Shown here: positions 10,606-45,211 of the stretch, piece after piece
Layout: each line of letters opens with the position of its first letter
How positions within the stretch are numbered: position 1 is the stretch's first letter
Assembly (NCBI RefSeq): GCF_009720625.1
Contig: NZ_CP046266.1
Coordinates: forward strand, 2,241,501-2,305,500
Length of the DNA: 64,000 nucleotides
Source of the DNA: Metabacillus sediminilitoris
Lineage (GTDB): Bacteria > Bacillota > Bacilli > Bacillales > Bacillaceae
Reading direction: 5' to 3'
Translations under genes and position numbers: made by a program
The notes under the pieces: model-generated
Databases searched by the model: none
Seen by the model: the letters and a program-made list of their open reading frames with translations, nothing else
Told to the model about the DNA's origin: nothing

Positions 10606-10799
10606 GATAAGATTAGATAACTGTTTCCTCGACAAGATACCTATCTCCTGCCAGAAAAGTTTGGACAAAAAGTAAAGATGGCTAGAAATAAAGCAAGAGA
10701 TTCCTTTTGGACTTGTTTTAATCAAGCACCTAGTTTTAATACACTCAAACAATATAAGAATGATATCAATTTAGATATCAAAATCGACCAGCGAATATG
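10606..10799 (+). other. Spacer with an unrecognised short open stretch
   Basis: Between paralogue A and the repeat, a frame is open for about 55 codons (containing KMARNKARDSFW) up to a stop just before the repeat. It has no convincing start or ribosome site. It reads like the tail of a lost gene, but I do not recognise it. Confidence 0.3.
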
Positions 10800-11111
10800 T
10801 TAAGATTTTTAAATTTATAGGTATACATCATTTTCACCCTAACGGGTGCCTAACAGAGGACTGAATCAAAAGGCGAACACCCGCAGAAACCTTCAGCAAA
10901 AGAAAGAGACGTATATAGACAAAGATTTTTGGAAACAAAAGGGTGGAAGATCACTCGAATTTGGAGTCGAAATTGGCGGAAGAACTCAAGTGCGGAAATT
11001 GAAAAGATTGATCAATTGGTTAAAAATTAAAAAAGAAGAGAATGTTTAGGTGAAAGTTATGGCTTAAATTATAGGTATACCAATATGGTATACCTATTTT
11101 TGTATGAATGT
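10800..11111. repeat. 312-bp direct repeat, copy 1 (left border of the malate block)
   Basis: This segment recurs at 26202-26513 in the same orientation with roughly 95% identity by eye. The motif ATAGGTATAC near the left end (10817-10826) reappears inverted near the right end (11088-11097), where it is part of a hairpin (11071-11097) followed by TTTTTG. Inside is a GTG-started 67-codon frame (10846-11049; ends INWLKIKKEENV) conserved in the other copy. No transposase is encoded, so a MITE-like element or a decayed gene cassette are both possible. Confidence 0.8.
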
Positions 11112-11131
11112 TACCCAAGTCCTGTCATTTT

Positions 11132-11403
11132 TTATTGATCACAAGAAATACCATCTCCATCACGATCCAATTTACTACTATAACCAGGCTCCCCCTTTCT
11201 AATTGGGGCTGCTCAGCATCTCTTACTTCAGAACAGTTATTGTATATAACTGTCTCTTCCGGTTCTTCAATAGGTTCTGGCTCAGGCTCAATAATTTCTT
11301 CTTGTTGTTAAGGTTCAGCCTCTGATTCATTCTCTACTGGTTCTTTTTCCTCCTCTAATGGTTTTTCTTCTAGCTCTTCTAGAGTGTTTTTATTTTTGTT
11401 ATC
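11132..11403 (-). pseudogene. Excalibur-domain surface protein relic
   Basis: On the minus strand an acidic, proline-rich linker (EPVENESEAEP, EPEPEPIEEPEE) leads into a C-terminal excalibur calcium-binding domain (YNNCSEVRDA, then GEPGYSSKLDRDGDGISCDQ and stop). A stop codon interrupts the linker and a one-base deletion breaks the frame between the two parts of the domain. There is no N-terminus or signal peptide. It is the decayed 3' end of a secreted or wall protein, lying next to the direct repeat. Confidence 0.72.
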
Positions 11404-11546
11404 TTATAATGTCAGTAAAGTCCGAGTTTACTAGATTTTTTCTTGCACTAGAACCAATTCATTGAACAATACGTTTGTAAGCAACTTTTTTGCGGCTTAC
11501 TTTTTTTATTTTCAAAACATTAATATAAATTTCATAAACTGTTTTT

Positions 11547-11561
11547 TTGGAAGCGTTACAA
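11547..11561. promoter_or_regulatory. cre-like site before the hydroxycarboxylate transporter
   Basis: TTGGAAGCGTTACAA fits the WTGNAANCGNWWNCA cre form with one mismatch and lies 42 bp before the transporter start. It suggests CcpA control of malate or citrate uptake. Confidence 0.45.
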
Positions 11562-11602
11562 CTATTATGTAGATACAGAAATAGTAAAGGAGGAATAACT
11601 TC

Positions 11603-12943
11603 ATGGAAACAGCAAGAAAATTGGAAACGCTTCAACATGAACATGAAAAACAAGGGTTTCTTACAAAGCTCAAACAAGTAAAGGTAGGGGTTATCCCATT
11701 ACCACTATATTTAGTATTAGCGGCAATTGTTTATGGTGCATCTGTTTATAATCAACTACCTCCAGACATGATCGGAGGATTTGCGGTTATTATGGTGCTT
11801 GGAATTTTACTAGGTGACCTTGGAATGAAAATTCCTATTTTAAAAGACATTGGCGGACCTGCTATATTGGCCCTGCTTGTTCCATCTGTTCTCGTATTTT
11901 TTAACATCTTTAATCCGGCTTCGATGGAAGCGGTGACAACATTAATGAAAACGTCTAACTTTCTTTATTTGTATATTTCTGTTTTAGTAGCTGGAAGTAT
12001 CCTGGGAATGAATCGCAGAGTCTTGATTCAAGGTTTTTCAAAAATGTTTATACCGCTTGTTCTCGGAACTGTAGCATCTATTGTTGTTGGTATATCAGTT
12101 GGAGCACTTTTTGGATATGAAATGAAGCATACCTTTTTCTATATCATTGTTCCTATTATTGGCGGAGGAGTTGGTGAAGGAATTCTACCATTATCACTAG
12201 CATACTCGCAAATTTTAGGTGGATCAGCTGAAACGTATGTATCTCAAATGATCCCTGCTGCAGTCATTGGAAATATCGTCGCAGTTATATGTGCAGGATT
12301 AATGAAAAATTTAGGTGAAAGAAAGCCAGAGCTTACTGGAAATGGCGTATTAGTCAAAGCAAAAGACGGCGTAAAAGAGATGAAGAACGAGAATACAAAT
12401 ATAAATGCGCCAGTCGATTTTTCATTAATGGGTGCAGGTTTACTGCTTGCCTGTGGTTTTTTCATCTTCGGTCAATTTGCCCATATGTTTTTAGGCATTC
12501 CTGGTCCAGTTTTAATGATTGTGGCTGCTACATTGGTTAAATGTCTTCAGCTAATGCCGGCAAAAATGGAACAGGGTGCATTTCATCTTTATAAATTTGT
12601 TTCTACAGGTTTAACTTGGCCGCTTATGGTAGGGTTGGGAATGCTGTTTATTCCATTGGAGGATGTTGTGAAAATTGTAACTCCTGCTTATGTGGTAGTT
12701 TGTATGTCTGTTGTGCTCGCAATGGTTGGGACAGGTTATATTGTTGGTAAATTCCTAAATATGCATCCGGTTGAATCAGCGATTGTAACTGGGTGTCATA
12801 GCGGATTAGGGGGAACAGGGGACGTAGCAATTTTGTCTGCCTCCAACAGAATGTCATTAATGCCATTTGCACAAGTAGCAACAAGACTTGGTGGTGCTGC
12901 TACAGTAATCATGGCAACACTCTTAATGAAGCTATTGAGTTAA
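11603..12943 (+). CDS. 2-hydroxycarboxylate transporter (malate/citrate, MaeN/CimH type)
   Basis: Secondary transporter of the 2HCT family, which in Bacillus and relatives moves malate or citrate with Na+ or H+. The 446 residues hold about 11 hydrophobic segments. The two family re-entrant motifs are present: GGGVGEGILPLSLAYS (about residues 193-208) and GTGDVAILSASNRMSL (about 409-424), with a conserved TRLGGA near the end. The AAAGGAGGAA site precedes ATG 11603. Neighbouring malate enzymes and a DcuS/CitA-like sensor favour malate as substrate. Confidence 0.9.
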   Translation: METARKLETLQHEHEKQGFLTKLKQVKVGVIPLPLYLVLAAIVYGASVYNQLPPDMIGGFAVIMVLGILLGDLGMKIPILKDIGGPAILALLVPSVLVFFNIFNPASMEAVTTLMKTSNFLYLYISVLVAGSILGMNRRVLIQGFSKMFIPLVLGTVASIVVGISVGALFGYEMKHTFFYIIVPIIGGGVGEGILPLSLAYSQILGGSAETYVSQMIPAAVIGNIVAVICAGLMKNLGERKPELTGNGVLVKAKDGVKEMKNENTNINAPVDFSLMGAGLLLACGFFIFGQFAHMFLGIPGPVLMIVAATLVKCLQLMPAKMEQGAFHLYKFVSTGLTWPLMVGLGMLFIPLEDVVKIVTPAYVVVCMSVVLAMVGTGYIVGKFLNMHPVESAIVTGCHSGLGGTGDVAILSASNRMSLMPFAQVATRLGGAATVIMATLLMKLLS

Positions 12944-13010
12944 AAGGATAAGGGAAATCAAGGAAAGCTTGGTGTTCATTCCAGGATTTTAGTGATTTAG
13001 TATAAATTTG

Positions 13011-13150
13011 TTATTTGGAAATTTCACTCAAAGCTTGCCCAGCTTTTTTATCAGCAACAGCAAGATCCCCTAAGAGCTGCAATGCCCACTAATGATCCAT
13101 CATCTACAATAGGTAAACGACGAATTTGATGCTTGCCATCAGGTTACTAG
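13011..13150 (-). pseudogene. CBS-domain protein relic (3' end)
   Basis: Reading leftward, fragments HQIRRLPIVDDGSLVGIAAL and GDLAVADKKAGQALSEIS then stop resemble the C-terminal CBS repeat of YhcV-like proteins. At least two single-base indels separate the pieces. No start or N-terminal repeat remains. Confidence 0.6.
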
Positions 13151-13205
13151 TTTCAGAAACAGACATAATTAAGAGTAAATTATGAAGGAAAGTAAGAGGA
13201 TTAGA

Positions 13206-13856
13206 ATGAAAAATCAAAGTTATACGTCAGTAAAGGTGATGATAGCTGATCCATCAGCGCTTGGTCTATTTGGTTTAGCAATGGTTACGCTTGTAGCATC
13301 ATCACAAAAATTAGGTTTAACAGAAGGTACGGCATTAATCTTGCCATGGGCATTTTTTTTAGGGGGTATTGCTCAATTAATTGCCAGCTTTTTTGATGCT
13401 AAGCATAATAATGTATTTGGAACAACGGCATTTGGTGCATTTGGATTGTTTTGGTTCGGTGTCGGTACAAGCTGGTTGATCCAAATGGGGGCTTTAGGAG
13501 ACACGGTCTTGGCAAATGCTGATTCTAAACAGCTGGGTGTTGCATTCATTGGCTATTTAATTTTTAGCTTATTTATGACAATCGGTGCAATGGAAACTCA
13601 TAAAGTGCTGTTTTTTATTTTCGTACTCATTGATTTCTTATTTATTGGATTATCCTTAAGTTCGTTTGATATTATGTACGAATTTTCACATATGCTTGCA
13701 GCCATCTCTGAATTGCTTATTGCGCTACTTTCATTTTATGGTTCTGCTGCAGCTGTTTTAAACACTCACTTTCAACAAGTTGTGTTACCTGTAGGAAAAC
13801 CATTTCGCATATTCATAAACGATAATAGAAAAGAAATAAGAAAAGCTACAGCTTAA
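13206..13856 (+). CDS. Acetate/succinate transporter (GPR1/FUN34/SatP family)
   Basis: Six-segment membrane protein of the AceTr family, which carries acetate and succinate with protons. The signature DPSALGLFGLAMVTL near the N-terminus corresponds to the family NPAPLGL motif, and the FGTTAFGAFGLFWF segment follows. The ATG at 13206 has AGAGG six bases upstream; an in-frame ATG at 13182 also has a weak site and would add eight residues. Between the malate transporter and acetate kinase it completes an organic-acid uptake set. Confidence 0.87.
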   Translation: MKNQSYTSVKVMIADPSALGLFGLAMVTLVASSQKLGLTEGTALILPWAFFLGGIAQLIASFFDAKHNNVFGTTAFGAFGLFWFGVGTSWLIQMGALGDTVLANADSKQLGVAFIGYLIFSLFMTIGAMETHKVLFFIFVLIDFLFIGLSLSSFDIMYEFSHMLAAISELLIALLSFYGSAAAVLNTHFQQVVLPVGKPFRIFINDNRKEIRKATA

Positions 13857-14340
13857 GGTGGCTTAGAAGAATAGTTGGATAAACGTTATTGAAATATCTC
13901 ACTTGGAATGTATGTAAATCTTATAAATTTCCGGTAAAAATGATTAGTGTACTAGCTCTTATAATATCTGTCCAACTTAGTGTAGCCTTTTCAGGAATTA
14001 CGGCTTTTGCATACAGGGCTGATCAAGGCCGATGTGTTTTTTTACCAAAATACTTTCCCTAGGATTAAAGGAAATCTAGTTGCTGTTGTCTCAGATGGAA
14101 ACGCTGTACTTGACTTGGGAATATTTTCAGTTAATAAGTAAGCCTCTTTCACGTTAGTTGTCAGTAAAATATTTATTTCATTTAAAACTTTAAACTTGGA
14201 CTCTATAAGTCTAATAATAGACAGTTGTAAGTATGTTAAAGATTATTTTACTAAATGGTAAAGGGCATATTTATTCATGTCACTAGTCAATAGAATAACG
14301 CCTTTCCATATAGGACTTTAGTGATTGAGGAGATAGATAG
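13857..14340. other. Intergenic region with a gene relic
   Basis: A spacer of 484 bp without an intact gene. It contains the malic-enzyme fragment at 14064-14123 and otherwise AT-rich sequence, suggesting remodelling of this part of the cluster. Confidence 0.5.
14064..14123 (+). pseudogene. Malic enzyme gene fragment
   Basis: Twenty codons read IKGNLVAVVSDGNAVLDLGI. They align with KGNLVAVVSNGTAVLGLGN of the intact malic enzyme gene (around position 21225) at about 80% of bases by eye. Nothing upstream or downstream continues the homology, so it is a small relic of a second malic enzyme copy or of a rearrangement within the cluster. Confidence 0.65.
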
Positions 14341-14523
14341 ATGATTTTAAAAAAATTAACCAAAAATCGCTTGATAACCATTATTTATTTTCAGAATGGA
14401 TTGCTTAAAACATGCAAAGGTCGAGTATATAAACTTAATTATTTCAATCAGACTATTAATGTAATAAACGAAAAGCAAAATGCGATCTCCATTCGTTTAT
14501 CAAGTATTAAGGAAATTCATTAG
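14341..14523 (+). CDS. Small YolD-like protein
   Basis: A 60-residue protein, basic and mostly beta-strand, with the pattern IIYFQNG..KTCKGRVYKLN....INVINEKQN followed by a short C-terminal helix-like end. The shape and spacing resemble the YolD-like domain of Bacillus phage and chromosomal proteins, though here it forms the whole protein. GAGGAG lies eight bases before ATG 14341. It precedes acetate kinase by 67 bp; its role is unknown. Confidence 0.55.
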   Translation: MILKKLTKNRLITIIYFQNGLLKTCKGRVYKLNYFNQTINVINEKQNAISIRLSSIKEIH

Positions 14524-14590
14524 TACATTCTAGATATCTAATATGTTTCTAAAAACGAAATGGTTTAGATGAAAAGGAGCAGGAAATATC

Positions 14591-15796
14591 ATGTCAAAAA
14601 TAATAGCAATCAATGCAGGAAGCTCTTCTTTAAAATTCCAGTTATTTGAAATGCCGAGTGAAGAAGTACTTACAGCTGGGTTAGTAGAACGTATCGGCTT
14701 AGATAAAGGAGTATTTACTATTTTAGTGAACGGAGAAAAAGTAAAAGAAATAATAGACATTCCAGACCATTCTGTTGCGGTTAAGATGCTTCTTAGCAAG
14801 CTTACACATTTTGGAATTCTCGATTCTTTAAATGAAATTGAAGGAATCGGTCATCGTGTTGTACACGGTGGTGAGATTTTTAATGACTCAGTTTTAATTA
14901 CAGATGAAACACTTCAAAAAATTGAGGAGTTATCTGATTTAGCCCCACTTCATAACCCAGCAAATGTTGTTGGAATTAAAGCATTCAAAGAAGTTTTACC
15001 AAATGTAAATGCAGTAGCAGTTTTTGACACGGCATTCCATCAAACAATGCCAGAACGATCATTCTTATATAGTTTACCATATGAATATTATGAAAAATAT
15101 GGAATTCGCAAATATGGCTTTCATGGTACCTCACATAAATATGTATCTGAAAGGGCAGCAGAATTATTAGGGCGTCCGATCGAACAATTACGATTGATTT
15201 CTTGTCACTTAGGAAATGGAGCGAGTATAGCAGCAATTGAAGGCGGGAAATCTATTGATACTTCAATGGGCTTTACACCACTTGCAGGTGTTGCAATGGG
15301 AACTCGTTCAGGGAACATTGACCCAGCGCTGATTCCATTTATTATGGAAAAAACAGGTCAATCAGAAATGGAAGTGTTAGATATTTTAAATAAAAAGAGT
15401 GGTATATTGGGCATTTCAGGTTTATCAAGCGATCTTCGTGACATCGAACAAGCTGCTGAAGAAGGAAATGAACGAGCAGAAACAGCTCTTGAAGTATTCG
15501 GTAGTAGAATTCATAAATATATAGGTTCTTACGCAGCACAAATGTCTGGAGTAGATGCAATTCTTTTTACTGCTGGAATTGGGGAAAACAGTGATATTAT
15601 CCGTTCACGTGTATTACGTGGTTTGGAATTCATGGGTGTTTATTGGGATCCTGAACGTAATCAGGTCCGTGGTGAAGAAAGATTTATTAGCTATCCGCAT
15701 TCTCCGGTAAAAGTTATCATTATTCCGACAAATGAAGAAGTTATGATTGCTCGTGATGTACAACAAATAGCGGTACCTGTACCTGTACTTCATTGA
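14591..15796 (+). CDS. ackA: Acetate kinase
   Basis: Converts acetate and ATP to acetyl phosphate, or makes ATP from acetyl phosphate in overflow metabolism; cytosolic. The 401 residues show [15 protein letters not shown] at the N-terminus, GHRVVHGGE, the catalytic [10 protein letters not shown] segment, [11 protein letters not shown] and [10 protein letters not shown] with the adenosine-binding GIGENS. A strong AAAAGGAGCAGG ribosome site precedes the ATG. This is probably an extra copy, because the housekeeping ackA of Bacillus lies in an unrelated neighbourhood. It fits acetate release or use beside the acetate transporter. Confidence 0.95.
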
Positions 15797-15905
15797 GATA
15801 AGGACTTAGGATGCCTTGGTTAGAATTAATCGGTACTTTAGGGAATGGAATGTTAATAATTGAGTAATTAAAAAAAGTAAAATTAGTGATGGATTTTTCT
15901 CTATT

Positions 15906-15949
15906 TATGTTATACTATTCGTAGATTTTTAGATAAATAGTATAACTCA
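15906..15949. promoter_or_regulatory. Candidate CcpN operators over an extended -10 promoter of gapB
   Basis: TATGTTATACT (15906-15916) fits the CcpN motif TRTGHYATAYW as I recall it. An inverted near-match, AGTATAACTCA (15939-15949), has one mismatch. The first copy also contains TGTTATACT, an extended -10 promoter element. In B. subtilis CcpN represses gapB and pckA on glycolytic carbon, so the placement is sensible; binding is inferred. Confidence 0.5.
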
Positions 15950-15973
15950 ATAGATTGAGGGGGACATATTAAA

Positions 15974-17002
15974 ATGATTAATGTGGCTATTAACGGGTTT
16001 GGACGTATTGGAAGAATGGTGTTTCGTCAAGCGATAAAAGAAAGCTCATTCCAGGTCGTAGCAATTAATGCGAGCTATCCTGCAGAGACGTTGGCACACC
16101 TTTTAAAGTACGACACAGTACACGGGAAGTTTGACGGTACTGTAGAGGTTTCGCAAGATCACTTATTGGTGGATGGTAAGTTAGTTCAACTTCTTAATCA
16201 TCGTAATCCTCAAGAGCTTCCTTGGAAGGAGCTGGGAATAGATGTTGTGATTGAAGCAACAGGAAAATTTAATGCAAAAGAACAAGCAAGTCTACATCTA
16301 GAAGCAGGGGCAAAGAAGGTCGTTTTAACAGCTCCAGGTAAAAATGAAGATGTTACGATTGTAGTTGGTGTAAACGATGAGCAATTGGATATTACAAAAC
16401 ACGATGTGATCTCAAATGCCTCCTGTACAACTAATTGTCTTGCTCCAGTCGTCAAGCTGTTAGATGAACAATTCGGCATAGAGAATGGCTTAATGACTAC
16501 TGTACATGCATATACAAATGATCAAAATAATATTGATAATCCACATAAAGATTTACGTAGAGCTCGTGCATGCGCACAATCTATTATTCCAACTACAACA
16601 GGTGCTGCTAAAGCTTTAGCAAAGGTACTACCACATTTAACCGGCAAATTACATGGTATGGCACTACGCGTTCCGACACCAAATGTTTCGCTTGTAGATC
16701 TTGTAGTAGACGTAAAATGTGATGTGACAGTGGAACAAATTAATAATGCCTTCCAGACTGCGGCCCAAGGATCAATGAAGGGTATTATAGAATTCTGTCA
16801 TTCACCGCTTGTGTCAGTAGATTTCAATACAAATACAAGTTCGTCTATTATTGATGGTTTATCTACAATCGTTATGGGAACCCGTAAGGTAAAGGTTCTT
16901 GCCTGGTATGATAATGAGTGGGGCTACTCCTGCCGCGTTGTAGATCTCGTAAAGCTAGTAGCAGATCAGATTGCTAGCCAAAAAAAATTACAACATGTTT
17001 AA
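15974..17002 (+). CDS. gapB: Glyceraldehyde-3-phosphate dehydrogenase, gluconeogenic GapB type
   Basis: Phosphorylating GAPDH of 342 residues with the Rossmann start INGFGRIGRMVFR and catalytic Cys151 in SNASCTTNCLAP. Substrate-binding stretches DLRRARACAQSIIPTTTGAA and WYDNEWGYSCRVVDL are present. After the first strand pair it reads INASYPAETLAHLLKYDT. This is the pattern of Bacillus GapB, in which the NAD-selecting Asp of GapA is replaced, pointing to NADP use and gluconeogenic direction. GAGGGGG lies before ATG. It sits between acetate kinase and PEP carboxykinase genes, with candidate CcpN sites upstream. Confidence 0.93.
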   Translation: MINVAINGFGRIGRMVFRQAIKESSFQVVAINASYPAETLAHLLKYDTVHGKFDGTVEVSQDHLLVDGKLVQLLNHRNPQELPWKELGIDVVIEATGKFNAKEQASLHLEAGAKKVVLTAPGKNEDVTIVVGVNDEQLDITKHDVISNASCTTNCLAPVVKLLDEQFGIENGLMTTVHAYTNDQNNIDNPHKDLRRARACAQSIIPTTTGAAKALAKVLPHLTGKLHGMALRVPTPNVSLVDLVVDVKCDVTVEQINNAFQTAAQGSMKGIIEFCHSPLVSVDFNTNTSSSIIDGLSTIVMGTRKVKVLAWYDNEWGYSCRVVDLVKLVADQIASQKKLQHV

Positions 17003-17158
17003 GTCGATGACTTCATTACTAGCAACTTAAGGTTCAAATACTTTCAGAAGAATTCACCAACAAAACCCTATAAATAGTATGAATCATTTAAGTTAATGTA
17101 TGTACTATTTGCGGGAATTACAAGAAATTTTCAAAAAAGATAAAAGGATGATATAGAT

Positions 17159-18745
17159 ATGAGTAGTGTGAACGTACAAATTGAATTACATGAGTTATTA
17201 AATGGAAGTAATGCACAAGTTCAATTAAGTGTTTCGCAGTTAGTGGAAAAAGTAATTAAGAGGGGAGAAGGTAAATTAACTTCTACCGGTGCTGTCTCTG
17301 TTTCAACAGGTAAATACACAGGTCGTTCTCCTAAAGATAAATTCATTGTTAAGGAAGCATCTACTGCTGATAAAATTGATTGGGGTACTGTAAACCAACC
17401 GATTTCCCAACAGCATTTTGATAATCTGTACACAAAGGTATTAGAATACTTAAAAGAAAAAGAAGAAATCTTCGTATTTAAAGGCTTTGCCGGAGCGGAT
17501 CACAGCCACCGTCTTCCAATTCAAGTTATAAATGAATATGCTTGGCATAACTTATTTGCACATCAATTGTTTATCCGTCCGACAGGGATTGATTCCCCGA
17601 AACATGATGAACAATTTACAATCGTATCTGCTCCAACATTTAAAGCTAATCCGGATATTGACGGTACAAATTCTGAAACGTTCATCATTGTTTCTTTTGA
17701 AAAGCGTGTTATTCTGATCGGCGGTACTGAGTATGCAGGTGAAATGAAGAAATCCATCTTCTCTATCATGAACTACTTGTTGCCGGAACAAGACATTTTA
17801 CCTATGCACTGTTCTGCAAACGTAGGTGAAGAAGGCAATGTGGCATTGTTCTTCGGCTTATCGGGTACAGGAAAGACAACGCTTTCTGCAGATCCAAACC
17901 GCAAGTTAATCGGTGATGACGAGCATGGCTGGTCTGATAACGGTGTATTTAATATTGAAGGCGGCTGCTATGCAAAGTGCGTGAACTTATCTCGCGAGAA
18001 GGAACCTCAAATCTTTGATGCGATTACATTCGGGTCTGTATTGGAAAATGTTATTATCTGCGAGAATACTGGTCTTGCAAATTACAATGATGTATCCCTA
18101 ACAGAAAATACACGTGCAGCGTATCCAATTGATGCAATCGATAATATCATGCTTCCAAGTGTTGCCGGACACCCAAATACAATTGTGTTCTTAACAGCTG
18201 ATGCATTCGGCGTATTGCCTCCAATCAGCAAGTTATCTAAAGAACAAGCCATGTACCATTTCTTAAGCGGTTATACTAGTAAGCTAGCAGGAACAGAGCG
18301 GGGGGTTACATCTCCAGAAGTAACCTTTTCTACATGCTTTGGTTCTCCATTCCTGCCGCTTAACGCATCTCGTTATGCAGAAATGCTTGGGGAAAAAATA
18401 GAAAAGCACAACTCAAACGTATTCTTAGTAAATACTGGTTGGACTGGTGGAGAATATGGCATAGGTCACCGTATGAACCTTTCCTACACTCGAGCAATGG
18501 TGAGAGCAGCACTTAACGGAGAATTAGATAACGTGGAAACCGGAAAGGACGATATCTTTGGTCTGGAAATTCCACTTAAAGTTCCAGGTGTACCTGACGA
18601 CGTATTAATTCCAGAAAAAACATGGACTGACAAGGAAGCTTATAAAGCAAAAGCCTTAGACCTTGCTAGCAAGTTCAATGAAAACTTCAAAAAGTTTACA
18701 AGCGTATCTGAAGATATTGTAAAGCTTGGCGGACCTCTGGTATAA
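17159..18745 (+). CDS. pckA: Phosphoenolpyruvate carboxykinase (ATP)
   Basis: Converts oxaloacetate and ATP to PEP and CO2, the first gluconeogenic step from C4 acids. The 528 residues fit the ATP-dependent class. Motifs are [16 protein letters not shown] near residue 45, the kinase-1a P-loop [11 protein letters not shown] (about 233-243), [14 protein letters not shown] and the C-terminal adenine-binding [12 protein letters not shown]. It follows gapB by 156 bp with its own AAAGGATGA site and ends before a strong terminator. With Mqo it would move malate into PEP. Confidence 0.96.
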
Positions 18746-18881
18746 CGAAAACTGAATGTTCAGCTCTTAAGCTGGTGTAAAAATAATTTAATAGAGACAT
18801 AGAAACCTAAATGACAACTTGTTCAATGACAGCTTATGATGAATTTCCAAACCATTCTATATAAATTCTATTTTCAATTTG

Positions 18882-18919
18882 GACAGACTTCACCCATTGG
18901 GTGAAGTTGTCTTTTTTTT
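18882..18919 (+). terminator. Intrinsic terminator after pckA
   Basis: A GC-rich hairpin (ACTTCACCC and GGGTGAAGT core, flanked by GACA/TGTC) is followed by eight consecutive T residues. Confidence 0.88.
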
Positions 18920-19078
18920 AGCTTATGCATCGAATGCCATTCAAACATCAAGAGACTTATTCAATTGATTTAAAGCCCGACAGACAAGCTTTCATCCTTT
19001 GCCTATGATCAATCGTCCCAAGGGCATTCGATCGGATTTGAAGTGGATATGAATATTAATAAGGAAAGGAGAGTTAAA

Positions 19079-20584
19079 ATGAGCAACAGAGAAACGAAAA
19101 CAGACGTAATTTTAATTGGTGCCGGAATCATGAGTGCTACTTTGGGGACACTTCTGAAAGAATTAGTACCAAACTGGAAAATTAAGGTATTTGAAAAGCT
19201 TACAAACGCAGGAGGGGAAAGCTCTAACGAATGGAATAATGCAGGCACAGGTCATGCCGCACTGTGCGAGCTTAACTATACGGTCGAAAATCCGGATGGA
19301 TTGATTGATATTAGTAAAGCAATAAAGATTAATGAACAATTTCAAGTTTCAATGCAGTTTTGGTCATATCTTGTAAACAACAAGCTGATCCAAAATCCAC
19401 AAGATTTTATCATGCCATTGCCTCATATGAGCTTAGTTCAAGGGGAACAAAATGTTTCGTTTTTAAAAAAAAGATTTGAAGCGTTATCAAAGAACCCATT
19501 GTTTCAAGGAATGGAATTTTCCGATGATCCTGAAAAACTAATGGAATGGATTCCGCTTATTATGCAAGATCGCACATCGAATGAGCCTATTGCAGCAACA
19601 AAGATCGACTCTGGTACTGATATCAACTTTGGAGCTTTATCCCGCATGTTGTTTGACCACTTAGAGACTAAAAATGTCGATTTACACTACAATCATAGTG
19701 TTACTGATATGAAACGTACGAGCGATGGTCTATGGGAATTAAAAGTACGGAATTCGGGTAGCGGTACTGTCGAATGCCATAATGCAAAATTTGTCTTTAT
19801 CGGAGGCGGAGGAGGAAGTCTGCACCTACTGCAAAAATCCGGCATTCCTGAAGGAAAACATATGGGGGGGTTCCCGGTAAGCGGATTATTTATGGTGTGT
19901 AATAATCCAGATGTAGTAGAGCAGCATCATGCAAAAGTATACGGAAAAGCTAAGGTTGGTGCTCCTCCAATGTCTGTTCCGCACCTGGACACAAGATTTA
20001 TTGATAATAAGAAATCATTACTATTCGGACCATTTGCTGGCTTCACACCAAAGTTCTTGAAAAACGGTTCAATGTTTGATTTGATCACTTCCGTAAAACC
20101 GGATAATCTCGTAACGATGTTGGCAGCAGGTGCAAAAAACATGTCATTGACAAAATACCTGATCCAGCAAGTGATGTTATCAAAAGAACAGCGCATGGAA
20201 GAATTACGTGAATTTATTCCGAACGCAAAAAGTGAGGATTGGGATTTAGTCGTAGCAGGCCAGCGGGTGCAGGTGATTAAAGATACGGAAGCTGGTAAAG
20301 GAACACTTCAATTTGGAACGGAAGTTGTTAGTGCAGCTGATGGTTCAATTGCAGCATTGCTTGGTGCTTCCCCTGGTGCCTCTACCGCCGTGCACGTCAT
20401 GCTAGAAGTACTAGAAAAATGTTTCCCTGAACATATAAATGAGTGGGAAACGAAAATGAAAGAAATGATTCCTTCTTATGGTATATCGCTAATGGATAAT
20501 CGAGAACTTCTGAACGAAATCCATACCTCAACAGCTAAAACACTTGGTCTAGCAGAAAAAGAGCCGGAACTTGTATTTAGTTAA
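19079..20584 (+). CDS. mqo: Malate:quinone oxidoreductase
   Basis: Peripheral-membrane FAD enzyme oxidising malate to oxaloacetate with electrons passed to quinone. The start is set at ATG 19079, preceded by GGAAAGGAGAG; an ATG 36 bp earlier lacks a site. The N-terminal FAD fold is [17 protein letters not shown]. Other Mqo hallmarks are [37 protein letters not shown] and [12 protein letters not shown], ending with [20 protein letters not shown]. The 501-residue length fits the family. In this block it feeds oxaloacetate to PckA. Confidence 0.95.
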
Positions 20585-20604
20585 TTATTGAAAAAGCGAT
20601 GATT

Positions 20605-20645
20605 GAAAAAAGTATCCTAGAGAGTAGACATTAGAGTACTTTTTT
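20605..20645 (+). terminator. Probable intrinsic terminator after mqo
   Basis: AAAAAAGTA and TACTTTTTT flank an imperfect stem with CTA/TAG pairing and end in a T run. The remaining region to 21040 (about 400 bp, AT-rich) shows no gene; it must hold the malic enzyme promoter. Confidence 0.55.
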
Positions 20646-21040
20646 ATACTATCAGAAATTATATTTTATGGTTGATAGCATAAGGGGATTTTCAAGGTGA
20701 AGGTCTAATTTTCTTATTGTCTTTTCTAGAGTTGTTTTCATATAAAAACTAAAGCTTCCGCCATAAGACCTGGTGAAAAGTAAGTTTTTTAATTAATTTT
20801 CTTAAATTAAAAAACAATTAAAAAAGTTAAATATACTATGAAGCTTTCTAAAAACACTATAATCTTTACTAAAGAAAGAGAATGAAAAAATTAGTCAATG
20901 GGAAGCGCTTTTTTTCCTAATTTGTACAATCTAAAAAGACAATATATTTAATATGTTTAGTGCTCTAAATTAAAATTAATCTATTAATCTACCAATTCAA
21001 TAAGTCTTATAAAATTCTACAAAAGCAGGGTGATTCCGTT

Positions 21041-22240
21041 ATGTCAACATTACGAGAAGAAGCATTAAAAATGCATCAAGAAAATAGAGGTAAACTTAGT
21101 GTTAGTTCTAAAGTCAAGGTACGTGATGCAAAAGATTTAAGTCTTGCATACTCACCAGGTGTAGCTGAGCCATGTTTAGCTATTCATGAGAATGAAGGTA
21201 AAGTATATGATTATACAATGAAGGGAAATCTGGTTGCTGTCGTTTCAAATGGAACCGCTGTCCTTGGGCTTGGAAATATCGGGCCGAAAGCAGCTATGCC
21301 GGTAATGGAAGGGAAGGCATTGTTATTTAAAGAATTTGCAAATGTAGATGCCTTTCCACTATGCATAAACTCGACTGATACGGATAAAATTGTCGAGCAC
21401 GTTAAAATGTTAGAGCCTACTTTTGGCGGAATAAACTTAGAAGATATTGCGGCACCGCAATGCTTCGAAATTGAAGAGCGTTTACACAAAGAGTGTGATA
21501 TTCCTATTTTCCATGATGACCAACATGGAACAGCTATTGTAACCGCAGCAGGACTCATTAATGCTCTGAAACTAGCAAACAAAAATATTGTGGATATTCG
21601 TGTCGTAGCAAATGGAGCTGGGGCTGCAGGCGTTGCTATTGTCAAGCTGTTGCTGAGTATGGGTGTGAAAGATGTCATTTTATGTGATACAAAAGGAATC
21701 ATTTATAAAGGCCGTCCGGTGGGTATGAATAAATTTAAAGAAGAAATGGCAAGGATTACAAATAAAGAACAAAAGCAAGGGTCATTAGCAGATGCATTGC
21801 AGGGTGCAGATGTGTTTGTCGGGGTCTCTGCCGCAGGAGCAGTTACAAAAGAGATGGTTCGTTCTATGAATGAGAATCCAATTATTTTTGCTATGGCTAA
21901 TCCGACACCAGAAATTATGCCGGAGGAGGCAAAAGAAGCAGGAGCACTTGTAGTTGGAACAGGACGCTCTGATTTCCCGAACCAAGTTAATAATGTCCTT
22001 GCATTCCCAGGGATTTTCCGTGGTGCTTTAGATGTTCGTGCAAAGGAAATTAATGAAGGAATGAAAATTGCTGCTGTTTATGCTATCACTGATTTAATTA
22101 GCAGTGAAGAGCTTCACGCTGATTATGTCATTCCAGATCCATTTGACCCAAGAGTAGCGAAACATGTAGCAGAAGCTGTTGCAGCTGCAGCAATAAAAAC
22201 AGGGGTTGCGCAAAAAACATTTGATTTTACAACCACTTAA
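21041..22240 (+). CDS. Malic enzyme (NAD(P)-dependent, short bacterial type)
   Basis: Oxidative decarboxylation of malate to pyruvate. The 399-residue, YtsJ-like single-chain form shows SLAYSPGVAEPC near the N-terminus, NGTAVLGLGNIGPKAAMPVM, metal-binding FHDDQHGTAIVTAAGL and the Rossmann motif ANGAGAAGVAIVKLLL (about residues 188-203), then AMANPTPEI. GGGTGATTCC lies before the ATG. Directly downstream is a two-component system of the CitA/DcuS-MalR kind, matching the malate-sensing arrangement in B. subtilis. Coenzyme preference cannot be fixed from sequence. Confidence 0.94.
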   Translation: MSTLREEALKMHQENRGKLSVSSKVKVRDAKDLSLAYSPGVAEPCLAIHENEGKVYDYTMKGNLVAVVSNGTAVLGLGNIGPKAAMPVMEGKALLFKEFANVDAFPLCINSTDTDKIVEHVKMLEPTFGGINLEDIAAPQCFEIEERLHKECDIPIFHDDQHGTAIVTAAGLINALKLANKNIVDIRVVANGAGAAGVAIVKLLLSMGVKDVILCDTKGIIYKGRPVGMNKFKEEMARITNKEQKQGSLADALQGADVFVGVSAAGAVTKEMVRSMNENPIIFAMANPTPEIMPEEAKEAGALVVGTGRSDFPNQVNNVLAFPGIFRGALDVRAKEINEGMKIAAVYAITDLISSEELHADYVIPDPFDPRVAKHVAEAVAAAAIKTGVAQKTFDFTTT

Positions 22241-22327
22241 AGATTCGTTTATCTGGTATTAAGGAAATTGCTAAACCATTGCTAATTATAACTCCAGATC
22301 AAGTTAAAATAGAAATTTTACTTTTAT

Positions 22328-22365
22328 AGCCTTCCTAATAATCTGTTTAGGTAAGGCTTTTATTT
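22328..22365 (+). terminator. Intrinsic terminator after malic enzyme
   Basis: AGCCTT.CCTAA pairs with TTAGG.AAGGCT, followed by TTTATTTT. It separates the enzyme gene from the sensor kinase gene. Confidence 0.75.
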
Positions 22366-22432
22366 TACAATAGCTTAGTTAAAGCTGTATTGAATGAAAG
22401 AATAAGCAGGAACGTTTTTAGGAGTGGACTCA

Positions 22433-24037
22433 TTGTCAAAACAAAAATTTAAGCTAAGTACTATTATCATTTTCTTTGTATGCTTGGTTGTTCTTTTATC
22501 ATTGCTTTTTACTGATTTATTAATTAGTCAAACAGTAAGCGAATCGATTCGTAGCAGTCAAGAAGAAAAAGCAAAGATTGTATCACGAACAGTTGCCAAA
22601 TCTGAAATTGTTAGAAGTGGACTTGAGAGAGAAGATGATAGTGGTGCAATACAAGAGTATACAGTCGATATTCAACAAGCAGCTGATGTTCTTTTTGTTG
22701 TAGTGATGGATATAAACGGAATTAGAAAATCTCATCCTGATCCAGGAGAAATTGGGAAACACTTTATCGGCGGAGATGAAGAAGTGGTATTAAACGGAAA
22801 AGAGAATATCTCGATATCGAAAGGGACACTAGGACAGTCATTACGTGCATTTACTCCTATCTATAATGATGAAAAGGAACAGGTAGGAGCAGTTGTAGTT
22901 GGGATATCCCTCAATAATGTTGAACAAGCACTTGAAAGTGGTCATAAAAATATTTTAATTGGCTCGAGCTTAGGTATTTTAGTAGGTATCATAGGTGCAG
23001 TTTTCCTGGCAAGATATATTAAAAAGGTTTTATTTGGATTAGAACCCTCTGCGATTGCAAAAATTCATGAGGAAAGAAATACGATGCTGCAATCTGTTCA
23101 TGAAGGAATTATTGCAGTTGATAAAAATGCAATAATAACTCTTGTCAATAAATCAGCATTACGAACCTTTATGAATATGGGATTGCAAGGTAATCCTGTA
23201 GGAAGGAAACTGACCGATTTTCTGCCATTTTCAAAATTGGAACGGGTGATAAAAACAGGAAGGTCCGAAAAAGATGAAGAGATAACGGTCAATGGTGTAA
23301 CACTTTTATCGAATCGAGCTCCGTTGATTGTAAACCAAGAAATAGTTGGAGCAATCTCAACATTCAGGGACAAAACTGAAGTCCACCAATTAGCAGAGCA
23401 ATTAACGGGTGTTCGATTATATGCAGAAGCCTTGCGCGCCCAGTCACATGAGTTTATGAATCGACTGCATGTTATTCTTGGTATGGTTAAAATGGGATTT
23501 TATAATGAGTTAATCGATTTTATAAATGAAATTGTTGATCACCGTGTAAACGAAGTTAGTTATGTTACAAAAAATATGAAAGATCCTGTTCTTGCTGGGT
23601 TTATTATGGGCAAGCTTAGTACGGCAAGAGAAAATAAGGTAGAGATGAAGATAGATAATAAGACAGTCATTCCAAAATCCAGTGAGGATCATGTTACACA
23701 TGAATTAATTACCATTATCGGAAATGTCGTAGATAATGCGATAGAAGCCATGAGTGAAATGAAGGAAAAGAAGCTTCTGTTAAAGTTAAACTATAATAAA
23801 AATCAACTTCGAATTAAAGTCCAGGATACGGGGCCTGGTCTTAAAAAGGAACAATTTACTCACATATTTAAGAAGGGGTATTCGACAAAGGGAGAAAATC
23901 GAGGCTATGGATTATATTTAGTGAGTAAAAGTGTCGAAGTTTTAGGAGGATCTATCCAACTAAACTTAAGTGTTGAAAAAGGAACAGAGTTTATTATTCA
24001 AATTCCTTACAAGGGAGAGCAGGAGACAAATGATTAA
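22433..24037 (+). CDS. Sensor histidine kinase of the CitA/DcuS/MalK family
   Basis: Membrane sensor, most likely for an extracellular C4 dicarboxylate or citrate. One N-terminal membrane segment (about residues 10-32) leads into an extracytoplasmic PDC/PAS-like domain with HPDPGEIGKHFIGGDE, the CitA-type ligand pocket region. A second membrane segment, a cytosolic PAS domain and the dimerisation box LRAQSHEFMNRLHVI (phospho-His about 339) follow, then an ATPase domain with GNVVDNAIEAM and KGYSTKGENRGYGLYLV. TTG 22433 has AGGAG eight bases upstream; GTG 22424 is possible. It overlaps the response regulator gene. Confidence 0.92.
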   Translation: MSKQKFKLSTIIIFFVCLVVLLSLLFTDLLISQTVSESIRSSQEEKAKIVSRTVAKSEIVRSGLEREDDSGAIQEYTVDIQQAADVLFVVVMDINGIRKSHPDPGEIGKHFIGGDEEVVLNGKENISISKGTLGQSLRAFTPIYNDEKEQVGAVVVGISLNNVEQALESGHKNILIGSSLGILVGIIGAVFLARYIKKVLFGLEPSAIAKIHEERNTMLQSVHEGIIAVDKNAIITLVNKSALRTFMNMGLQGNPVGRKLTDFLPFSKLERVIKTGRSEKDEEITVNGVTLLSNRAPLIVNQEIVGAISTFRDKTEVHQLAEQLTGVRLYAEALRAQSHEFMNRLHVILGMVKMGFYNELIDFINEIVDHRVNEVSYVTKNMKDPVLAGFIMGKLSTARENKVEMKIDNKTVIPKSSEDHVTHELITIIGNVVDNAIEAMSEMKEKKLLLKLNYNKNQLRIKVQDTGPGLKKEQFTHIFKKGYSTKGENRGYGLYLVSKSVEVLGGSIQLNLSVEKGTEFIIQIPYKGEQETND

Positions 24038-24746
24038 TGTTCTAATTGTAGATGATGACCCGATGGTAGCAGAGTTTAATAAACAATACTTAAAAAAAAT
24101 TGATGGTTTTATTTTAGTAGGTATCGCACATTCGGTAAATGAAGCGACAAAAATGATCAATCATCAAAAAGTTGATCTAGTACTTTTAGATATCTACATG
24201 CCGGGTGAAAATGGGTTGACTTTATTAAGTAAAATAAGAAAAGAAAAAAAAGAATTAGATGTCATTCTAATAACTGCGGCTTCAGACGTAGATAAAATTC
24301 AGACTGGGCTAAGATATGGAGCTGTAGATTATTTAATAAAACCATTTGAGTTTAAGAGATTTCAAAAAGCACTTATATCTTACAAAGAACAATACTTATA
24401 TTTAAATCAACAAACTAAGATGAACCAGAAGGATTTAGATGAGCTCCTACTGGTGAAACAGGATGAATTAGTTACCGCTAAACCAATAAAGCCTCTGCCA
24501 AAAGGTTTATCTAGAGAGACTTTAAAAGTAGTTTTTAGTGCGATTAAAAAGCAAGCGAATTTTCCATTTACGACAGATGAAATGGCTGAAATTACAGAAA
24601 TTTCAAGAGTTTCCATTAGGAAGTATTTAAAATTTTTAAGTGAGGTTCATGTTATTGATGAAACATTAACTTATGGTATTGGTAGACCTATTTATTCTTA
24701 TATGTATAACGAGGAAAATGAATCGATTCTTAAACAATATATGTAA
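24030..24746 (+). CDS. Response regulator of the CitB/DcuR/MalR family
   Basis: Cytosolic partner of the preceding kinase. A receiver domain starts NVLIVDDDPMVAEF, with phospho-acceptor Asp54 in LLDIYMPGENGL and the conserved Lys in DYLIKPFEF. A linker and a C-terminal helix-turn-helix (TTDEMAEITEISRVSIRKYL) follow. The ATG at 24030 overlaps the kinase stop by 8 bp, with GCAGGAGA upstream, so the two are translationally coupled. Likely targets are the malate transporter and malic enzyme genes of this block, by analogy to MalKR. Confidence 0.92.
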   Translation: MINVLIVDDDPMVAEFNKQYLKKIDGFILVGIAHSVNEATKMINHQKVDLVLLDIYMPGENGLTLLSKIRKEKKELDVILITAASDVDKIQTGLRYGAVDYLIKPFEFKRFQKALISYKEQYLYLNQQTKMNQKDLDELLLVKQDELVTAKPIKPLPKGLSRETLKVVFSAIKKQANFPFTTDEMAEITEISRVSIRKYLKFLSEVHVIDETLTYGIGRPIYSYMYNEENESILKQYM

Positions 24747-24893
24747 TTAAAAAAGATATCAATAATTACGTTTTACAATGTGAATATCACACATAACAGA
24801 CTTCAAGGAATCGTACTTTTAATCTCAATTCTATTAAAATATGATCTCCTTTCGTTCTGCAAATATAAAGAAAGCATGAGGGGGAAGCGTATA

Positions 24894-25844
24894 GTGAAAA
24901 AAAATTTGATCGTTCCATTAGCCTTTTTCTTTTTCATCATGGCTTTCACAAGTTTTACAGTTTGGTTTATTAAGGAAAAGGATAAGCCTAAGATTATGAT
25001 CGTTACACATAGATTAGATATCGAGTATTGGAAAATATTTGAGTCAGGAGCCGAAAAAGCCTTCCAAGATTTAAATCTAAAGGGTAAAGTCATAGCTCCT
25101 GAATCGATCTATCCTATTAGTAATCAGCCTAAAATGTTAAAAAAGGTTCTTACTCAACAACCTGATGCGCTAATTGTAGCCCCTATTGATGAAGAGGTTA
25201 CTATTCCTGCATTGATGGAATATAAGAAAAAAAATATTCCTGTGCTCCTTGTGTCTAGGGACATTGAATGGGAAGATAAAACCGCCTTTATTGGACCGGA
25301 CCACTATGAATTGGGTGAGATGTCAGGAAAGTTATTGGGTTCAATGCTGCAGCCAGGAGATCAAGTCGCTATCATTTTTGGGCTAGCATATGATCAAGTT
25401 ATGATTGATCGAATGAACGGGGCAAAGAAGGTTTTGAAGAATATCGGAATAGAGGTTGTTACAGAAAGATCAGGGTATGACGATTTGGCAAATCCAACAC
25501 CAGTGATGGGAAGCATTTTGCAATCGTATCCAAATATTAAAGGGGTAATTGCTACTTCTGACCGCTTAGCTCTAGAGGCATTAGGAACAATAGAGGAAAA
25601 AGGGATGAAAATCCCTGTTATTGGTACAGATGGTATAATAGAAATGACAGAATTTGTTGAGTCAGGAAAGGTAGATGCCACTATAGCGCAGAATCCTTAT
25701 GATATGGGATATCTAAGCGTAGTACAGGCACTGAAAGCAATTGAAGGAGACAATACCGAAAAGATAATTGATAGTGGAATTGATATCATAACTAAGGATA
25801 ATGCGGAAGATAAAATAAACTTTTTAAAAAAATTATTACGGTAA
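24894..25844 (+). CDS. Membrane-anchored periplasmic-binding-protein-like protein, paralogue B
   Basis: A roughly 316-residue protein with an N-terminal membrane anchor (LIVPLAFFFFIMAF) and a ribose-binding-type domain. It matches paralogue A through YWK.FESGA.KAF, VAPIDEEVTIPALMEYKKK, LQPGDQVAIIFG, PNIKGVIATSDRLALEAL and AQNPYDMGYLSVVQALKAI. GTG 24894 is chosen because GAGGGGGAAG lies about six bases upstream; longer frames lack a site. It is 147 bp behind the malate-type response regulator, so it may assist sensing, as binding proteins do in Bacillus DctB-DctSR. No transporter subunits are nearby. Confidence 0.8.
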   Translation: MKKNLIVPLAFFFFIMAFTSFTVWFIKEKDKPKIMIVTHRLDIEYWKIFESGAEKAFQDLNLKGKVIAPESIYPISNQPKMLKKVLTQQPDALIVAPIDEEVTIPALMEYKKKNIPVLLVSRDIEWEDKTAFIGPDHYELGEMSGKLLGSMLQPGDQVAIIFGLAYDQVMIDRMNGAKKVLKNIGIEVVTERSGYDDLANPTPVMGSILQSYPNIKGVIATSDRLALEALGTIEEKGMKIPVIGTDGIIEMTEFVESGKVDATIAQNPYDMGYLSVVQALKAIEGDNTEKIIDSGIDIITKDNAEDKINFLKKLLR

Positions 25845-26015
25845 AGTAAAATCTTCTACTATTATTTTTTTGTAATAAATAATGACGTCCTATAGATGTG
25901 TGGGTTTTGCAATTTACCTTTTGGTATTTCGAACAAGGAACAACGCGATCACTTCTCAACTAACTTCATTAGGTGTAATCCCCATTCGTTTGCAATATTC
26001 CCCCAATGCTCGAAT

Positions 26016-26200
26016 TTTCAAGGAAAACAGATAAGAAAAAAAGATGTAGTAATTAACATGGATGATATAAAGGGTTATCTTAATGTGAGGAAAGAACGAT
26101 ATGGTGGGACAGATGCTGAATATGAATATTTTTTTTTTTCAAAATATAATGGCTCCCCTTCCCATCTTTCTATTAGATCAATTCAAGACTGAGTTAGAAA
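26016..26200 (+). pseudogene. Tyrosine recombinase (integrase) relic
   Basis: A fragment reads GKQIRKKDVVINMDDIKGYL, then EYFFFSKYNGSPSHLSIRSI, QD, stop, VRK. This resembles the middle of the XerC/D-like catalytic domain (G-K-K..V.ln..i..yL....ylFlS..g..ls.rsiq..vrk). The in-frame TGA probably replaces a Trp codon. The catalytic HxxR and Tyr regions are absent, because the 312-bp repeat begins immediately after. The upstream continuation is not recognisable. Confidence 0.5.
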
Positions 26201-26201
26201 A

Positions 26202-26513
26202 TTAAGATTTTTAAATTTATAGTATACATCATTTTTACCCATAACGGGTGCCTAACAGAGGACTGAATCAAAAGACGAACACCCACAGAAACCTTCAGCA
26301 AAAGAAAGAGACGTATATAGACAAAGATTTTTGGAAACAAAAGGGTGGAAGATCACTCGAATTTGGAGTCGAAATTGGTGGAAGAACTCAAGTGCGGAAA
26401 TTGAAAAGATTGCTCAATTGGTTAAAAATGGTAAAAGGAGAGAATATTAAGGAGAAAGTTATGGCTTAAATTATAGGTATACCAATATGGTATACCTATT
26501 TTTGTATGAATGT
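26202..26513. repeat. 312-bp direct repeat, copy 2 (right border of the malate block)
   Basis: Same orientation as copy 1 at 10800-11111, with only scattered substitutions and two compensating single-base indels. The internal GTG frame (26248-26469) is longer here because of 3' differences, and the hairpin plus TTTTTG end is retained. It abuts the integrase relic on its left. The repeats are 15.4 kb apart and enclose the whole malate and gluconeogenesis block. Confidence 0.8.
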
Positions 26514-26607
26514 ATGCGGGGATTTTGTATACAAAGAAGATTTTTTGATTTGTCTTATTACACAATTGTGCCCGATGTTTTTGCGATTGTTGCTGGACTA
26601 TTTTACG

Positions 26608-26991: not shown

Positions 26992-27184
26992 ACTTATCCT
27001 CCTACTCAATATTTATAGGCACTAAAAAGTACCTATATCACTTTCAGGTGCTTATATAACTTTAAAGTGCGTACTTACTTTTATAAAACACACTCCTTAT
27101 AATACATCTTGCGGACATTTTCTACCAGACTTTTTGCAGTTCATGTTCTAGAAAAATTTCACATCACTAGAAAGCAGGAAGGCC

Positions 27185-27779: not shown

Positions 27780-27801
27780 AACGATTATGGGGGTAAAAGA
27801 T

Positions 27802-28278: not shown

Positions 28279-28320
28279 TTGTAGTTAGTGAATAAATAAT
28301 CAGTTTTAGGGAGTGATACT

Positions 28321-28794: not shown

Positions 28795-28846
28795 AAACCA
28801 CTAAATCTTATCAATTCAAATCAAATAATAATGGAGGTTCATTGTA

Positions 28847-45210: not shown

Positions 45211-45211
45211 G

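Follow-up and report, generated by a model that had tools for sequence, protein, structure and literature searches.

Between positions 10,800 and 26,513 of the window (the whole 64,000-nucleotide stretch of the Metabacillus sediminilitoris genome analysed here), profile searches recover every gene that the sequence-only reading had listed between two repeats, all of them on the forward strand. The block opens with a 2-hydroxycarboxylate (2HCT, malate/citrate type) transporter (11603..12943, PF03390 523 bits), which falls just under the TIGR00783 cut-off (521 vs 549) and for which malate and citrate are candidate substrates, and with a yaaH-type acetate uptake transporter (Gpr1_Fun34_YaaH; 13182..13856, NF038013 95.7 bits, cut-off 50). 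Behind a relic of a malic enzyme gene (14064..14225, tblastn E 3e-6) and a small YolD-like ORF (14341..14523, PF08863 35.9 bits) come second copies of ackA, encoding acetate kinase (14591..15796, TIGR00016 585 bits), of a gapB-type glyceraldehyde-3-phosphate dehydrogenase gene (15974..17002, NF005830 669.9 bits, cut-off 546), of pckA, encoding PEP carboxykinase (ATP) (17159..18745, TIGR00224 813.7 bits), and of mqo, encoding malate:quinone oxidoreductase (19043..20584, TIGR01320 735.9 bits). A malic enzyme gene (21041..22240, PF00390 and PF03949) then precedes a two-component system, made of a DcuS/MalK-family sensor histidine kinase (22424..24037, NF008298 703 bits, cut-off 520), which stays below the cut-off of the MalK model (572 vs 800), and a DcuR/MalR-like response regulator (23970..24746, PF00072 101.7 bits; NF007750 244.5 bits, just under the cut-off of 262). 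The check for second copies elsewhere in the complete window genome, called for by the same reading, turned up paralogues of every block gene at 67-84% DNA identity, that of the regulator being found mainly by protein. Foreign base composition was rejected as an indicator, as GC content gives no signal (36.5% in the block, 35.7% in the window).

The block is bracketed by two copies of a 312-bp repeat (10800..11111 and 26202..26513, both on the forward strand by DNA comparison), described earlier as about 95% identical in the same orientation and now measured at 95.5% identity over 313 columns, in that orientation. A search of the 5,602,542-bp single-contig genome (E <= 0.001) returned these two full copies and one weak 37-bp match, so the pair is far from chance. 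From about position 10889 on, the left copy consists of the last part of a helicase-nuclease gene (AAA_11/AAA_12/MTES_1575) together with the palindrome that follows; in another genome (G012) the repeat has its homologue in the 3′-terminal part of a long open gene, and, judged by this homology, it is the surviving tail of a helicase-nuclease gene otherwise lost. Contiguous with the tail, as in M. bambusae (G001), lies on the reverse strand the relic of a gene that we take, from its motif, to be Excalibur-like (11112..11233), and the whole of 10889-11233 aligns to the M. bambusae locus L085 at 85% over 348 columns. The repeat was rejected as a mobile element or an RNA, since the genome has no full copies beyond these two and the sequence is that of a gene tail, and an Rfam scan of it gave nothing at E up to 1. 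A composite transposon was rejected as well, the bracketing repeat being a gene tail rather than an IS; a scan of 20 flanking ORFs from G005, G013, G017, G011, G001 and G003 found no transposase. A plasmid search gave no match to the left copy, and a phage search none to the right one. Each copy is preceded by a gene for a sugar-type periplasmic binding protein, PBP1 (9616..10605, forward, PF13407 159 bits), which lies upstream of the left repeat and outside the block, and PBP2 (24780..25844, forward, PF13407 172 bits); the two share 67% DNA identity, and PBP2 was not found beside the blocks of other genomes.

The integrase relic said to adjoin the right repeat is indeed present, if small: it is a fragment of 44 codons (26058..26189, forward) of a plasmid-type XerS tyrosine recombinase (61.4% over 44 amino acids, E 1e-11), whose relatives are the XerS recombinases of large Bacillaceae plasmids, and it has no match in Pfam, PHROGs or solved structures. 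Intact integrase or conjugation genes are absent from the scanned genes of 10800-26513, and tRNA genes from the 64-kb window.

Upstream of the block gapB, at -68, lies a predicted CcpN-type site (15906..15916, forward, TATGTTATACT), sites of this kind being called here with what we take to be the CcpN consensus. Putative sites accompany the block gapB in all five copies (at -64/-68), the core gapB in the one genome examined, and the core pckA in 13/13 testable genes (those with at least 149 bp upstream, out of 16 fetched from the 21 genomes compared), and none is found upstream of the block pckA in any of its five copies. CcpN represses PckA and GapB in B. subtilis, according to PMC6079084; the block gapB thus keeps a putative site like that of the core gene, whereas the block pckA is without one, and at least its oxaloacetate-to-PEP step should consequently escape the usual glucose repression. 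A corresponding escape of the block ackA from CcpA was rejected: the window genome has a cre-like site at its core ackA and none at the block ackA, but the control failed, with a cre-like site in just 1/20 core ackA genes (upstream sequence reached that position in 15 of the 20). Promoter alignments of the block genes show conserved stretches and no convincing common regulator box.

The genus comparison covered 21 Metabacillus genomes, the window genome (G000) included. Leaving aside yaaH, which is confined to the window's block copy and missing from those of G005, G013 and G017, the block is collinear in these four genomes, so that the search of relatives for the same gene order did find it, in differing surroundings. 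G003 and G001 retain decayed remnants of it and G011 a deleted form, which makes three more genomes that hold it in partial or decayed state. The YolD-like ORF recurs in the blocks of G017 and G001, and upstream of the kinase in the window genome's other malate cluster. Within 10-15 kb of the block, the flanks of G000, G005 and G013 have nothing in common above 35% amino-acid identity, and that of G017 (an assembly 89% complete with 7% contamination) shares with G005 and G011 just a second 2HCT gene, which follows the regulator. G005 and G011 are closely related, yet they carry the unit in different surroundings. G014, a close relative of G005, lacks at the corresponding site 14.8 kb of G005 sequence that include the block; the G014 junction is followed by multi-copy sequence, a 97.1% copy of which lies on another contig, so that the contig join across this block-less site is likely rather than proven. 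Patchy presence in the genus is thus joined, in G014 compared with G005, by a probable empty site, as expected of a genomic island; at the window's own locus, the left flank has only weak partial matches (64-69%), in 5/20 other genomes of the genus, and the right-flank genes are multi-copy. Direct repeats of other sequences stand at the block borders in G005 (23-24 bp), G011 (158-284 bp) and G017 (65 bp, the right copy lying within a gene), and none is found close to the block ends in G013. Those of G005 are inexact copies of a 23-bp motif that occurs once in the block-less site; the motif also ends a repeat of about 270 bp, which is found behind many genes in the G005/G011/G014 clade and is absent from G000.

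If the block had moved between species, its divergence should depart from that of the core genome, and at fourfold-degenerate sites it does. Between G000 and G005 the identity is 68.0% for eight block genes and 38.9% for seven core genes, without overlap (p 0.0003); the corresponding values are 61.5 and 39.3 for G013 (p 0.0003), and 66.9 and 39.9 for G017 (five core genes, p 0.0016), although such gene-wise p values overstate independence, the block genes being linked. Block and core do not differ significantly between G005 and G013 (p 0.07) or between G013 and G017 (p 0.065). Among quartet sites, 141/236 in the core back the species split, against 134/404 in the block, which is star-like. Discordance with the core genome is also seen in the PckA tree, where the block clade falls inside an Ectobacillus/B. 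cereus clade (99/97) and apart from the Metabacillus core (100/99). The block mqo, on the other hand, is not clearly separated from the Metabacillus core mqo (60/93), which makes the origins of the block mixed. Resolution is poor in the GapB tree (22/48 inner branches under 80). As protein matches, block-type GapB (91-94%) occurs in Halalkalibacter, Salipaludibacillus, Neobacillus and Ectobacillus, and the block-type kinase (87%) in Halalkalibacter kiskunsagensis, which also has a GapB match.

Could the block go back to the ancestor of Metabacillus, having come down vertically, disappeared from most species and had its flanks scrambled by rearrangement? Its loss is common, judging by the remnants in G003 and G001 and the deleted form in G011; in the close pair G005/G011 the shared block genes (98.0-98.8%) are as similar as core genes (96.4-97.1%), and the second 2HCT gene behind the regulator is common to G005, G011 and G017. 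Such descent is nevertheless improbable, given that the block of G000 is closer to those of G005, G013 and G017 than any core gene tested, fourfold sites included, that its PckA belongs outside Metabacillus, that G005 and G011 differ in its surroundings, and that G014 runs across the site without it. That the window genome built the block itself, by copying its resident genes, is hardly credible: the paralogues are there, and the block mqo stands close to the Metabacillus core, but the paralogues reach only 69-84% (enzymes and carrier; 67% for the kinase) where the blocks of other species reach 81-93%, the order is identical in those species, and the foreign affinity of PckA speaks against it, so that such an origin is contradicted for pckA and gapB.

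A narrower question is whether homologous recombination between copies of the 312-bp repeat brought the block into the window genome, or can take it out, in a single crossover that involves a circle with the block and one repeat copy. The only full copies in 5.6 Mb both border the block, the unit has direct repeats at its borders in G005, G011 and G017 too, and the XerS fragment adjoins the right copy. The left copy, however, runs straight into the gene relic, just as the helicase tail does in M. bambusae (85% over 348 columns), which gives some of the bracketed DNA the look of an old neighbourhood; moreover, the 312-bp repeat has no match (E <= 0.001) in the other whole-block genomes G005, G013 and G017, and G013 is without a close direct repeat. 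We regard this route as possible, though doubtful.

The varied surroundings, the fourfold-site distances, the PckA tree and the block-less site of G014 support the idea of a transferable central-carbon module, and we consider the block to be a horizontally transferred set of second copies for growth on malate, with a probability of roughly 0.82. It has probably moved between Metabacillus lineages after the species split, and other Bacillaceae genera probably took part. As for the window genome, the block may have arrived there on a large plasmid, as suggested by the XerS fragment of plasmid type beside the right repeat. Three plasmid searches gave no carrier of the whole block; the 362-kb M. 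dongyingensis plasmid pBY2G20 has a kinase-regulator-2HCT-malic enzyme quartet and also xerS, and an Anoxybacillus amylolyticus plasmid (258 kb) has pckA (75%) and a gapB-like gene (77%), 113 kb apart. Quartets of this kind, also found on Metabacillus chromosomes (in the window genome at C1:1542170-1547193), are homologous to four genes of the block, that of pBY2G20 at 82% DNA identity in the 26% of the query that matched, but they differ from it in gene order and have no ackA, gapB, pckA or mqo. The block resembles metabolic genomic islands in its patchiness, variable surroundings, direct repeats and integrase remnant; unlike them, it brings no new catabolic pathway but central-carbon enzymes that the host already owns, without an intact integrase found and without a tRNA in the window.

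The targets of MalKR lie dispersed on the B. subtilis genome, whereas the block physically joins carrier, mqo, pckA, gapB, ackA and malic enzyme, as extra copies. According to PMC5419742, the targets of this system (also called YufLM) in B. subtilis are malate carriers and malic enzyme, and imported malate goes mostly into gluconeogenesis, with the excess leaving as overflow products. The block likewise has a DcuS/MalK-family kinase and its regulator beside a carrier and a malic enzyme, with control of these predicted by analogy. The two-component system would sense a C4-dicarboxylate and switch on the neighbouring genes; the 2HCT carrier would bring in malate, Mqo would turn it into oxaloacetate and PckA the latter into PEP, these steps following from the families identified; GapB would move the carbon on in the gluconeogenic direction, and the pyruvate/acetate overflow would fall to malic enzyme, AckA and YaaH. 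With a pckA that lacks the CcpN-type site, the block is probably a gluconeogenic bypass driven by malate.

Core gluconeogenic enzymes are usually regarded as fixed, vertically inherited and glucose-repressed. The block is not described in the literature retrieved, partly judged by title, on malate/gluconeogenic gene clusters, horizontal transfer in Metabacillus or acquired central carbon metabolism. It is tempting to speculate, although we think it rather unlikely, that central carbon metabolism itself travels in the Bacillaceae as a cassette, a malate-to-PEP bypass with a CcpN-free pckA being passed between genera and moved site-specifically, in an integron-like way, at the 23-bp motif in the G005/G011/G014 clade. 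On the main reading, a single acquisition of a mobile, clustered set with its own dicarboxylate sensor, and with no repressor site at pckA, would place malate-fed gluconeogenesis under different control, and it becomes testable whether catabolite control may be rewired by the gain of a paralogous module rather than by mutation of the resident genes.

The sequence-only reading placed a set of malate and gluconeogenesis genes between two same-orientation copies of a 312-bp repeat, and this arrangement proved real: the copies (10800-11111 and 26202-26513) are 95.5% identical, are the only two full ones in the single-contig genome (5,602,542 bp), and enclose all the named genes, i.e., those for a 2-hydroxycarboxylate transporter (2HCT), yaaH, ackA, gapB, pckA, mqo, malic enzyme, a DcuS/MalK-family kinase and a response regulator, together with a sugar-type binding protein. 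No tRNA was found in the 64-kb window. The main check of that reading was for second copies elsewhere in the genome, and these were found when 9400-26600 was compared to its own genome by blastn, at identities of 79% (2HCT), 77% (yaaH), 76% (ackA), 69% (gapB), 71% (pckA), 84% (mqo), 78% and 71% (malic enzyme, two paralogues and one, respectively) and 67% (kinase), the regulator's paralogue being matched across a short stretch only. The paralogues are scattered, with the exception of a second malate cluster (C1:1542170-1547193), ordered kinase-regulator-2HCT-malic enzyme, whose regulator shares 50% protein identity with that of the block. A malic enzyme relic at 14064-14225 hints at the block's origin as an outgrowth of a 2HCT-malic enzyme pair.

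Among the matches listed, the order 2HCT-ackA-gapB-pckA-mqo-malic enzyme-kinase-regulator occurs in four of the 21 Metabacillus genomes (the window's own, G000, and relatives G005, G013 and G017), with yaaH in the window's copy only. Across 80 family genomes (the same 21 plus 59 from five other genera), adjacent gapB and pckA matches were confined, among those listed, to these four and M. bambusae (G001). The latter retains 2HCT, an ackA fragment, gapB and pckA; another relative, G011, retains malic enzyme, kinase and regulator and shows a 7.5-kb internal deletion (mqo to 2HCT), and in G003 2HCT, pckA and mqo survive as broken pieces. The flanks of G000, G005 and G013 have nothing in common above 35% amino-acid identity over 10-15 kb per side (further on the window's right). 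The G017 contig extends 2.7 kb to the left and about 5.6 kb to the right of the block, and its sole shared flank feature is a further 2HCT gene that follows the regulator, common to G017, G005 and G011 (87-88%), which suggests that the unit is probably one gene longer in these three. In G013, a gene for HPr kinase/phosphorylase, a sensor of carbon catabolite control, adjoins the block (fetched stretch L074:13519-14463).

Transfer was assessed at the fourfold-degenerate sites of eight block genes and seven core genes (ackA, mqo, pckA, gyrB, parE, yaaH and a malic enzyme). Block and core identities do not overlap for G000-G005 (68.0% versus 38.9%), G000-G013 (61.5 versus 39.3) and G000-G017 (66.9 versus 39.9, five core genes); they are 63.4 versus 47.5 for G005-G017 (p 0.006) and 53.2 versus 45.1 for G013-G017 (p 0.065). 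For the closely related G005 and G013 the trend, if there is one, is reversed, with 58.2 in the block and 62.9 in the core (p 0.07). In parsimony quartets, one split is favoured by three core genes (141 of 236 sites); the eight block genes favour it at 134 of 404, the star-like expectation. Block PckA falls within an Ectobacillus/Bacillus cereus group clade (99/97), separate from the Metabacillus core PckA (100/99), and block AckA forms its own clade (100/100); block and core Mqo are not clearly separated (60/93). Block-type GapB, whose tree is poorly resolved, is found at 91-94% in Halalkalibacter, Salipaludibacillus, Neobacillus and Ectobacillus, the window genome's core GapB standing at 74%, and the kinase is matched at 87% in Halalkalibacter kiskunsagensis. 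The idea of a transferable second-copy module stands, and these proteins make its transfer across genera likely.

As to the vehicle, pBY2G20, a 362-kb plasmid of M. dongyingensis, carries a kinase-regulator-2HCT-malic enzyme quartet, and one Bacillus sp. CMF21 plasmid has a kinase match at 77%; plasmid searches did not find the whole block on a plasmid. The integrase relic noticed at the right repeat is a recombinase fragment (26058-26189) with 61% identity to the XerS proteins (annotated xerS) of large Bacillaceae plasmids, pBY2G20 among them. Plasmid-chromosome exchange of another gene set is reported, in PMC9040632, for the strain of pBY2G20.

The suggestion that the block is excised by recombination between its 312-bp repeats is unproven as a specific mechanism, and the block does not in general move by way of this repeat. 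The latter was matched in six of the 21 genus genomes (the window's own included), and the other whole-block genomes, G005, G013 and G017, are without any match. In G012 a long open gene, which encodes AAA_11, AAA_12 and MTES_1575 nuclease domains, is matched at its 3′ end. Since the match in M. bambusae runs beyond the repeat into the following gene relic, as at the window's left copy (348 columns, 85%), the left copy seems still to lie among its old neighbours and the right one to be an extra.

A site without the block is seen in G014, a relative 96.7-97.1% identical to G005 across three core genes, whose listed matches to the block are to core-type genes only. Its contig C5 follows the G005 left flank (98.9% over 14.65 kb) and directly enters right-flank sequence (95.6% over 1.46 kb) up to the contig end, where 1,136 bases agree without a difference with the beginning of contig C55; C55 in turn follows the G005 right flank at 98.2%. 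The C5-C55 join is likely rather than proven, because this stretch recurs at 97.1% identity on another G014 contig, C52. Given this direct passage between flanks, G005 has about 14.8 kb of extra DNA (C2:1918581-1933352), with AGACGTGTTAATTACACTTATCA at one end and a one-base-insertion version at the other, in direct orientation; the motif AGACATGTTAATAACACTTATCA is single at the G014 site. The site alone would fit either an acquisition by G005 or a deletion from G014. The same motif is the end of a dispersed repeat of ~270 bp; in G011, where the block has different neighbours, copies of this repeat lie at its borders. G017 has a 65-bp direct repeat (85%) at the left border and the second 2HCT end, and G013 has no direct repeat close to the block, its nearest pair (about 72% identical) lying some 7 and 3 kb outside.

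The ~270-bp repeat (e.g., L077:12592-12875) has no copy in the window's genome at E <= 1e-8, and 13-21 matches each in G002, G005, G006, G008 and G011. It is single-oriented within each of six stretches examined, 29 of 37 copies lie behind a same-strand ORF, and Rfam gave no family for four array stretches; further loci are in fetched stretches L265-L267 (G005:C2:80001-140000), L268-L270 (G002), L271 (G006) and L272 (G008). This terminator-like repeat looks like an integron-like or mobile 3′ element.

Elsewhere in the window, 26608-29689 holds an HxlR regulator, a shortened MFS gene, a tautomerase-domain protein and, by our reading, an aldo/keto reductase, with paralogous pieces (72-81%) at C1:404147-407001 and in several relatives. 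A phage-type replicative helicase (DnaB) sequence occurs twice, 13.7 kb apart (34282-35122 and 48009-48846, 88% identity), and is adjoined by a DnaD-like loader (32507-33442), the whole being a prophage remnant. Tandem SAM and cobalamin riboswitches (40978-41085 and 41482-41691) precede an apparent ABC transporter operon of the oligopeptide/nickel type (41825-46704), and an IS110-family transposase lies at 57362-58546.

For regulation, upstream regions were scanned for exact matches, within 150 bp, to TRTGHYATAYW, which we take to be the CcpN consensus. Such a site, whose background frequency in randomly chosen 150-bp pieces of the window is 0.5%, precedes core pckA in 13 of 16 fetched cases (the other three had just 6-52 bp of upstream sequence) and block pckA in none of five (250 bp upstream each). 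Block gapB has it in all five, at -64 or -68, as does the one core gapB checked. PMC6079084 describes repression of pckA and gapB by CcpN on glucose in B. subtilis. In the same species MalKR turns on malate carriers and a malic enzyme, and malate that has been taken up is channelled into gluconeogenesis, with acetate and other products as overflow (PMC5419742). On this reading the block would serve as a pathway induced by malate and, to judge from block pckA being without a CcpN-type site, its PEP step at least would escape glucose repression.
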